A program made the translations under genes and the position numbers. The notes beneath the pieces were generated by a model. It was given only the letters and a program-made list of their open reading frames with translations. It did no database searches and was not told the DNA's origin. 64,000 bases of DNA, from the NCBI RefSeq assembly GCF_900188105.1, contig NZ_FZNP01000014.1, forward strand, positions 62,001 through 126,000, in the 5' to 3' direction. This document shows, piece by piece, positions 28,892 through 31,212 of this stretch (the first letter of the stretch is position 1; each line of letters starts with the position of its first letter). This DNA is from Actinomadura mexicana (GTDB lineage Bacteria > Actinomycetota > Actinomycetes > Streptosporangiales > Streptosporangiaceae).

Positions 28892-29617
28892 CTACGCCGG
28901 GACGGTCAGCAGCGTGCGGCCGTCGCCGATCGTGCGGACCTCGAACCGGCTGATCTCCTGCGGCCGCAGCGCCGTGCCGCCCTGCAGGGCCAGCTGGGGC
29001 TGCGGCGACCCCGGCAGACCGTAGCCCCTGTCGGGGACGGACCAGCCGACGACGGTGTGCGCCTTGCCCCGCCTGTCCACGGCGACCAGTTCGCACGCGA
29101 GCGGCCCGTCGACCCTGCTGAGCCGCAGCGCGATCCGGCTGCCCCACGCCTTCTGCTGCATCGCGACCGTCCCGGTGACGCCGGTGCCGGCGTCGGCCGC
29201 CGACATCGCCCGGCCGTCCCGCAGCAGCTGGGCGGTCCCGCCGTCCGGCGCGGAGGCGGCGGGGCCGCGGTCGGCTCCCAGCGTGTACCCGGTGCCGAGC
29301 GCCCCGCCGAGCAGCACGACCCCGGCGGCGGCCGCGGCCAGCGCCCGCGCGGCCCGGTGCCGCCGATCCCGGCGGATCCGGTGCCGGATCAGGTCGGTGA
29401 CCGCCGCCGGCTCGGGCGGCGCGGGCATCGCCTCCACCGGGTCGGCGATCGGGCCGATGCCGTCCAGGGTCTGGGCGAGCCCGCTCAGCGCGCCGAGCTC
29501 CTCGTGGCAGGAGTAGCACGTCGCCAGGTGCGCCTCGAAGGCGTGGCGGTCGGGCTCCTCCAGCAGGCCGAGGGCGTAGGCGCCGACGTCGACGTGCGGC
29601 ATGTCCGGCGCTCTCAT
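28892..29617 (-). CDS. Zinc anti-sigma factor, membrane-anchored
   Basis: The 241-residue product opens with DVGAYALGLLEEPDRHAFEAHLATCYSCHEELG, split here into helix plus the HxxxCxxC zinc motif (His30, Cys34, Cys37) of ZAS anti-sigma factors. One membrane helix lies near residues 88-108 (ALAAAAAGVVLLGGALGTGY). The C-terminal 130 residues are outside the cell and read like the anti-sigma-K/RskA domain. The ATG overlaps the sigma gene stop by four bases. It should hold the sigma factor at the membrane until regulated proteolysis. The signal is unknown. Confidence 0.9.
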   Translation of the reverse strand: MRAPDMPHVDVGAYALGLLEEPDRHAFEAHLATCYSCHEELGALSGLAQTLDGIGPIADPVEAMPAPPEPAAVTDLIRHRIRRDRRHRAARALAAAAAGVVLLGGALGTGYTLGADRGPAASAPDGGTAQLLRDGRAMSAADAGTGVTGTVAMQQKAWGSRIALRLSRVDGPLACELVAVDRRGKAHTVVGWSVPDRGYGLPGSPQPQLALQGGTALRPQEISRFEVRTIGDGRTLLTVPA

Positions 29618-30213
29618 GGCGTCACGCCCCTCTCCTCCAGGGCGACGCGCAGCGCCCGGAGCGCGTAGTAGACCCGGGACTTCACGGTGCCCACGGGGAT
29701 CCCGAGATGCTTGGCGGCCTCGTTCACCGAGCGGTCCCGGAAGAAGGTCTCGTTGAGGACCTCGCGGTGCGCCGGAGACAGGGCGAGGAGGGCTTCGGAC
29801 ACGACGACGGAGCGCAGCAGATCCTCCAACCCGTCGGGCACGCGCATGTTCTCCAGCGGGCCCTCGCCCGCCTCCTGCGGCCGTGCGTTCTTGCGGCGCT
29901 GGTCGTCGATGACGATCCGGCGGGCGACGGTCGCCAGCCAGGGCAGCAGCGAGGTCGCGTTCTCGTCGAGCTGGTGCGCGCTGCGCCAGGCGCGGATCAT
30001 CGTCTCCTGGACGACGTCCTCGGCCCAGTGCCGGTCGCCGCCGGTGAGACGCAGGACGAACGACAGCAGCGGGCGGCCGTACACGCGGTACAGCTCGTTC
30101 ACGATCACCTGGTCGTCCACGCCGCCGGCGGGCCGCGGGCCGCGGAACCAGCTCCACGGTCCGGGAGGGCGATCGCGGGTGGCCGACGCGGCGGCCGGTG
30201 ATCTGTGGGCCAT
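29614..30213 (-). CDS. ECF RNA polymerase sigma factor
   Basis: The ATG at 30213 has GGAGA upstream. The 199-residue product has sigma region 2 (LYRVYGRPLLSFVLRLTGGD, AEDVVQETMIRAWR) and region 4 (LSPAHREVLNETFFRDRSV, NEAAKHLGIPVGTVKSRVYY). About 35 N-terminal residues precede region 2. It is translationally coupled to its zinc anti-sigma factor. Sigma factors of this arrangement normally activate their own promoter, but I could not identify a confident recognition sequence upstream. Confidence 0.92.
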   Translation of the reverse strand: MAHRSPAAASATRDRPPGPWSWFRGPRPAGGVDDQVIVNELYRVYGRPLLSFVLRLTGGDRHWAEDVVQETMIRAWRSAHQLDENATSLLPWLATVARRIVIDDQRRKNARPQEAGEGPLENMRVPDGLEDLLRSVVVSEALLALSPAHREVLNETFFRDRSVNEAAKHLGIPVGTVKSRVYYALRALRVALEERGVTP

Positions 30214-30543
30214 CGGGGGTCTCCGGCGGGGTGCGAGGGGTGCGGGGCGACGCGGTGACCGTGGGTGTCACGTTGGGAGGCAGTACGGGACCCCTGCGCC
30301 TCGCGGTTCAACCGAGGCCGTTTCATGGGGGATTTTCCGAATTGCGCCTTACTTGTTCGCCATGTTTCGCTTACCGTGCGGTCCCAGGGATCATCGAGGT
30401 GCGTCTCAGGGGGCGAACGGGAGGCGACGACTCCGACCCGCGCATCGGAACCTTCGCCGGGCAACGCTCACTCCACGCTTTGGAGCGAATGCGGGCATCG
30501 GGCCCATTTGCCCACAGAGAGACCGAGGGCGGGGATCGGAACG
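30214..30543. other. Divergent spacer between the sigma gene and the cyclase-like gene
   Basis: This 330-base region has a patch of lower GC around 30320-30380 that probably holds promoter(s). No gene is recognised in it. I cannot assign a specific sigma-factor box. Confidence 0.4.
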
Positions 30544-31212
30544 GTGAAGGAGAACGGGGAAGTACAGCTCAGCTACCGCCTGCTGCTGGCGGTGGACATC
30601 CAGGGGTACAGCAGGCGCGACACGCGCGAGCAGCTGCGCGCGCAGCGGCTGCTGTCGGAGGCGCTCGACGGCGCCGCCCGCGGTGTCGGCCTCGACCGCG
30701 CCGGCTGGGACAAGCAGGTCGGCGGGGACGGCGAGCTCGCCACGCTGCCGGAGGGCGTCGACCCGGCGACGGTGGCCGGCGACTTCGTCATCCTCCTCGG
30801 CGAGGCGCTGCGCGAGGTCAACCGGGACGCCGGCCGCTTCCGGCTGCGCGTCCGGGTCTCGCTGCACCACGGCACGCTCACGGCCGGGCCGTTCGGCCCC
30901 GCGGGCGACGCGCCCATCGTCGTCCAGCGGCTGCTGGACGCGGCGCCGCTGCGCCGCCTGCTGGCCGAGGAGGCGGACCGCGACCTGGCCTACGTCGTGT
31001 CGGACTCGCTGTTCGACGACGTCGTGCGGACCGGGTTCTGCGCCCTGCCGCCGCGCGGCTTCCGCGCGGTCAGGGTCGTGGCGAAGGGCGCGGTGTTCCG
31101 CGGCCACATCCTCACCGGCCGCGCCGCCGGCGAGGAGGCGGGAGACGACGCGGGCGGACCGGGCTCCCGGTCCGCCCGCGTCCTGGACTTCCCGGCCCTC
31201 GCCCTGAGGTGA
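30544..31212 (+). CDS. Degenerate class III nucleotidyl-cyclase-like protein
   Basis: The likely start is GTG at 30544, giving about 222 residues. The N-terminus YRLLLAVDIQGYSRR matches the first metal-binding strand of class III cyclases (FxDIxGFS). The phrase QVGGDGELATLP matches the GDG hairpin, and RLRVRVSLHHGTLTAGPFG matches the strand before the transition-state region. The second metal Asp and the Asn/Arg pair are not clear. It may therefore be a non-catalytic sensor, or make an unusual nucleotide. Such stand-alone domains occur in actinobacteria without assigned activity. It is divergent from the ECF sigma gene. Confidence 0.65.
   Translation: MKENGEVQLSYRLLLAVDIQGYSRRDTREQLRAQRLLSEALDGAARGVGLDRAGWDKQVGGDGELATLPEGVDPATVAGDFVILLGEALREVNRDAGRFRLRVRVSLHHGTLTAGPFGPAGDAPIVVQRLLDAAPLRRLLAEEADRDLAYVVSDSLFDDVVRTGFCALPPRGFRAVRVVAKGAVFRGHILTGRAAGEEAGDDAGGPGSRSARVLDFPALALR

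Follow-up and report, generated by a model that had tools for sequence, protein, structure and literature searches.

A stand-alone class III cyclase-like protein of Actinomadura with conserved metal aspartates, a Gln-Gly base pocket and a candidate folded leader RNA

The stretch of Actinomadura mexicana DNA analysed here (the window, 64,000 nucleotides) encodes a small protein that we infer, from its conserved residues and a predicted fold, to be probably a soluble, stand-alone nucleotidyl cyclase of the class III type, competent to bind metals and to cyclise an NTP rather than a dead sensor. Its gene is:

30544-31212, + strand: cyclase-like gene, 222 aa, GTG start at 30544, stop at 31210-31212

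Across the genus Actinomadura there are orthologues with about 66-94% identity, syntenic in all 20 loci examined, and the open reading frame is therefore taken to be a real gene; the named relatives with 84-89% identity to its product are all Actinomadura. The protein comprises a cyclase domain (residues ~8-192), a disordered linker (~193-210) and a short C-terminal peptide, ARVLDFPALALR. An N-terminal extension of the frame through the upstream leader described below is unlikely, an in-frame stop lying at most eight codons before the start in three loci (L009, L013 and L015). Estimates of dN/dS for the gene range from 0.38 to 0.67 (Nei-Gojobori, five sequences, synonymous distances of 0.09-0.23) and are unreliable because codon bias is extreme; taken as they are, they do not show strong constraint, which we count against an active enzyme.

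The VDIQGYS (residues 17-23) and GGDG (residues 60-63) phrases, on which a sequence-only reading had built its proposal of a cyclase-like domain with an altered metal site, are indeed present, and the structure prediction that it had suggested as a check returned a class III cyclase fold, not the unrelated fold that it had named as the contrary outcome. The AlphaFold model (pLDDT 88.1, pTM 0.83) has a beta-alpha-beta-beta-alpha-beta core, and the matches listed for it are class III cyclases both in Foldseek (best E 1.4e-8) and in VIA, where the guanylyl cyclase Cya2 comes first (Z 16.5, rmsd 2.7 over 173 residues). In the PDB, a profile built from 50 members of the family also reaches class III cyclases, namely 3mr7 (E 0.0021), Ma1120 (5d0g, E 0.0057) and CyaC. 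Since family profile and predicted fold both match this class, the resemblance is not due to chance, and the predicted class III nucleotidyl cyclase fold is supported. Single-sequence scans against Pfam and NCBIfam, DUF2652 included, and against PADLOC returned no family at E up to 1. Single-sequence phmmer matches in the PDB, mainly weak ones to ClpP (best E 0.0089), were rejected as spurious, profile search and fold both disagreeing with them, and a viral structure library gave weaker matches only, the best of which are annotated as cyclase-like or regulator proteins.

The residues of the predicted active site are encoded as follows, with counts among 47 homologues:

30595-30597, + strand: Asp18, first metal aspartate, D in 45/47, aligned to the 3mr7 motif
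30727-30729, + strand: Asp62, second metal aspartate (in GGDG), D in 45/47, at the beta-hairpin position in the model
30715-30717, + strand: Gln58, at the canonical Lys/Glu base-recognition position (Asp62 minus 4), Q in 24/47, E in 21/47
30895-30897, + strand: Gly118, at the canonical Asp/Cys base-recognition position (Arg129 minus 11), G in 44/47
30928-30930, + strand: Arg129, transition-state arginine, R in 47/47

These counts involve no motif selection: they draw on 40 lower-scoring whole-genome tblastn hits picked from the list and on seven loci of the A. mexicana genome itself. Alignment A2, in contrast, holds the window and 49 of 74 loci that were fetched with the motifs YRLL[LM]AVD[IL] and Q[VAP]GGDGEL[AV], so invariance within it is not taken as proof. 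When the family profile is aligned to 3mr7, Asp18 and Asp62 fall on the two metal-aspartate motifs, with the GGDG Asp on the GDG Asp, while the base-recognition Lys is aligned with Gln58, the Asn with Ile125 and the transition-state Arg with Arg129; the last stretch of this alignment has no gaps, and the base-recognition Asp therefore falls on Gly118. The second metal aspartate of class III cyclases classically sits in the turn of a beta-hairpin, and the model puts Asp62 in such a turn, between strands 56-59 and 63-67. The clear second-metal residue that the sequence-only reading had found wanting is thus Asp62 of the GGDG phrase itself. That reading was right about the cyclase fold and mistaken about the metal site, both aspartates and Arg129 being among the most conserved residues; its statement that the standard purine-recognition residues are absent holds, Gln58, Gly118 and Ile125 standing in place of Lys, Asp and Asn.

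The pocket conforms neither to the Lys-Asp (or Lys-Thr) pair of adenylyl cyclases nor to the guanylyl cyclase pattern of Glu at the first position with Cys, Ser or Gly at the second. The subfamily of the protein has Gln58-Gly118 instead, and four relatives in the same genome (L003, L005, L006 and L007) have Glu-Gly, the Cya2-type pair. Since Gln-Gly replaces Lys-Asp or Glu-Cys, a nonstandard base preference is a well-founded question. Rv0386 of M. tuberculosis has a Gln-Asn pocket. We know of no verified precedent for Gln at the Lys/Glu position and of no activity for any close relative, and both points count against an active cyclase. Gly at the second base site and loss of the transition-state (ribose) Asn, which is kept in 8 of the 47 relatives, do not mean inactivity, because Ma1120 is active with a natural Ala at the Asn site and A164N lowers or abolishes its activity; D157G keeps adenylyl cyclase activity, and K101E/D157G uses both ATP and GTP (PMC4215837). 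For the choice of GTP, another report describes the Glu contact as dominant and the second residue as variable (PMC7384201).

By analogy with known class III cyclases, we posit that the protein would form a head-to-tail homodimer, with the metals bound by one subunit and Gln58, Gly118 and Arg129 contributed by its partner, and that this dimer would bind a metal-NTP and cyclise it to a 3',5'-cNMP, with a base preference that is relaxed or unusual. The short conserved C-terminal peptide, placed after a flexible linker where relatives carry TIR, EAD2 or GUN4 domains, may recruit a partner, although such a role is a guess. The tail reads ARVLDFPALAxR in the main Actinomadura clade and is of the LTLLTGVGGRGD type in loci L109, L110, L112 and L113. 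Six distant relatives (L126, L127, L128, L129, L130 and L133) end in short conserved C-terminal tails of the type SVFGxNxG, which are placed like amyloid signalling motifs; a likeness in kind is, again, a guess.

It is unlikely, in our estimate, though by no means far-fetched, that the protein is a catalytically dead pseudocyclase whose domain binds an NTP or a cNMP as a sensor or dimerisation switch. The canonical base residues and the Asn are absent, and the loss of the latter could also mark decay, which does occur in the family: L147 has Ala and Ser at the metal positions, and L004 of the A. mexicana genome has Asn at the second. Kaur et al. state, moreover, that catalytic activity is missing from several cNMP cyclases fused to vWA (PMC7159879). 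A pure sensor, however, would not need both metal aspartates and Arg129, and all three are nearly universal among the 47 homologues and invariant in 30 aligned sequences. A pyrimidine cyclase that makes cCMP or cUMP in the manner of Pycsar PycC is improbable. The class III fold and a noncanonical base pocket are common to both; the cytidylate cyclase EaPycC has a Gln in its pocket (F100, R142, Q144; PMC11224242), the uridylate cyclases 8jsz (Z 15.1) and 7r65 (Z 14.6) are among the VIA fold matches, and two relatives, L131 and L132, carry TIR fusions. Yet the pocket residues differ, the EaPycC set of F, R and Q being unmatched by Ala16, Gln58 and Gly60, which stand there by spacing from the metal aspartates; PADLOC returns nothing for the protein at E up to 1, and no effector gene is present among the neighbours examined.

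The protein that we favour as a metal-competent cyclase is one member of a large family in actinobacteria, in which TIR, EAD2, GUN4, TPR and CRP fusions occur. The cyclase domain matches eight places in its own genome, the query included, and relatives there carry CRP-type cNMP-binding domains (L039, L040 and L042), TPR (L041) or EAD2 (L043); further relatives carry TIR_2 (L131 and L132) or GUN4 (L123). Of 150 genomes examined in the order, 96 have a match at E up to 1e-10, as do 29 of the 39 genera; 5 of 72,556 plasmid records match, and a search of phages gave no match. One of the relatives in the same genome (L040:5968-9591, - strand, 1207 aa) contains two cyclase-like segments (L004 and L008), each without an intact metal pair in the alignment, together with its CRP-type cNMP-binding domain. 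The two TIR_2 fusions, L131:5995-7044 from Actinomadura oligospora and L132:5995-7065 from A. rubrisoli, keep both metal aspartates (A2) and are possible one-chain cyclase-TIR effectors.

Cya2 (2w01) and Ma1120 (4wp8, 5d0g) resemble the protein in fold (Z 16.5 and 16.2), in the two metal Asp residues and in the Arg. Like the protein, Cya2 carries Gly at its second base-recognition site (PMC4886424), and Ma1120 too is without the Asn (PMC4215837); the protein differs from both in having Gln where the first base-recognition residue would be Glu or Lys, and identity over the aligned part is 16-18%. DUF2652 cyclase-like proteins are likewise small (~250 aa), cytosolic and class III-like, and the mycobacterial ones have Ile in place of Asn, as here, but they pair Lys with Glu where this protein has Gln-Gly, and it lacks a Pfam match at E up to 1 (PMC4886424). 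Kaur et al. (2020) describe cNMP cyclases of conflict systems, several of them inactive (PMC7159879). The likeness to these lies in the actinobacterial origin, in the EAD2-bearing paralogue L043 and in the TIR_2 and GUN4 relatives, and the domain families are presumably the same. The protein differs in being stand-alone, in having a neighbourhood conserved in the genus and in lacking an effector-associated domain or adjacent ternary-system genes (PMC7159879); fusion or linkage to EAD, VMAP or vWA domains is absent from it and from the neighbours scanned.

The cyclase gene faces a divergent ECF sigma factor gene:

29614-30213, - strand: ECF sigma factor gene, divergent neighbour only, Sigma70_r2 E 6.4e-17
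28892-29617, - strand: zf-HC2 anti-sigma gene, neighbour only
30282-30310, - strand: TGAACC-N17-CGTACT between the two divergent genes, likely promoter by which the ECF sigma gene is autoregulated, does not belong to the cyclase gene
30348-30375, + strand: conserved element CTTAC..GTTCG..CTTACC between the sigma and cyclase genes, also present upstream of the cyclase in several sigma-less loci

The adjacency reported by the sequence-only reading is real, but the link that it implies is not supported, as other genomes carry either gene without its counterpart. In 14 of the 20 syntenic loci the sigma and anti-sigma genes lie between the 28118-28834 gene and the cyclase; in the other 6 they are absent, and nowhere in the genomes concerned is there a close sigma (54-57% identity at best, or no match, versus 97-98% in two control genomes). 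Conversely, G019 and G028 keep the sigma gene, the anti-sigma gene and the 28118 homologue at the same place and have no cyclase there. Sigma factor and cyclase are thus separable, and the former should not guide ideas about the function of the latter: despite the divergent adjacency here and in most orthologous loci, a dedicated partnership between the two is largely refuted and has next to no chance of being correct. TGAACC-N17-CGTACT, which resembles a SigL-type promoter, was not seen in the upstream stretches shown for sigma-less loci. The CTTAC-type repeat element may possibly be a promoter or operator of the cyclase gene. A search for a sigma-70 promoter or terminator consensus found none. 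Expression would probably depend on such an element of its own and on a folded 5' leader, not on the adjacent sigma factor. The 28118-28834 gene (- strand) encodes a conserved 238-aa protein that stays beside the cyclase locus across the genus, has no Pfam or PADLOC match and is modelled well by AlphaFold (pLDDT 88.6); the model finds nothing convincing in the PDB (Foldseek E 1.0 and VIA Z 5.7 at best).

The conserved leader candidate lies just before the start codon:

30438-30541, + strand: structured leader candidate (match to covariance model R1), three-way-junction core at ~30460-30512, directly upstream of the start codon

Its block pattern was recognised in 51 of 53 sequences (the window and 52 loci; L095 and L115 did not match), of which 48 distinct rows form alignment A3 after removal of three duplicates. 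The putative junction consists of the helices GGCAA/TTGCC, CA.TC.CTCCA/TGGAG.GA.TG and GGG.C/G.CCC. Pairing is kept in 95.8% of 855 cells, versus 37-49% when the strands are slid, and 17 cells changed on both sides, versus 6.1 in shuffles that ignore relatedness (0 of 500 as high). Single-strand folds of five sequences are no more stable than shuffles (z -1.01 to +0.30), so the case for structure rests on covariation. An alternative helix proposed by RNAalifold shares a 3' strand with one of the junction helices and shows covariation in 6 cells versus 12 for the latter; both may form. A further helix could pair the 5' CCTCC with the Shine-Dalgarno side. Because the length of the hairpin loop varies, we argue for an RNA rather than a DNA operator. 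Rfam gave no match at E up to 10 on 30150-30620 and none at the gathering threshold on the window, and the leader is a candidate for an undescribed folded RNA without an Rfam family.

R1 matches 34 of 59 genomes, all of them among the 36 of the same genus (A. mexicana included), and the top match in every one of the 34 is immediately 5' of the cyclase gene; in G035 there is also a weak second match (E 3.7e-4) at another place. The two genomes of the genus that R1 does not match, G019 and G028, lack both the cyclase at the syntenic place and the leader (best E 0.19). R1 was built largely from this genus, and its occurrence there is partly by construction, whereas its constant position and its absence together with the gene do not follow from how R1 was made. 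Among 13 further genomes R1 matches 6 at E up to 0.1, every time just upstream of a cyclase hit; three of these are in another genus of the family, and among those three one match is weak (E 0.08). The remaining seven include G147 and G146, whose cyclases score highly, and outside the genus the leader is therefore not universal; they also include G096 and G173, of the same genus, with weaker best cyclase hits (1.2e-64 and 4.8e-41). Leader and gene persist where the sigma gene is absent. The leader candidate thus appears to stay with the cyclase gene across the genus and to be specific to it. That it is a riboswitch for the cNMP product of the cyclase or for its NTP, forming a self-contained feedback unit with the Gln-Gly cyclase, is very improbable; literature searches in a limited library found nothing on cAMP or cGMP riboswitches and nothing relevant on riboswitches in Actinomadura.

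The facts likely to be of most use are that an intact metal site goes with a Gln-Gly pocket, that the gene is independent of the sigma factor, and that a gene-specific, putatively folded leader precedes it. In a family for which no Pfam model matches this member and no tested activity was found, a compact, soluble protein that stands alone in a conserved neighbourhood offers a case on which the base choice of such enzymes could be tested. The leader would provide a second, independent handle, and its stimulus would tell what the cell controls.
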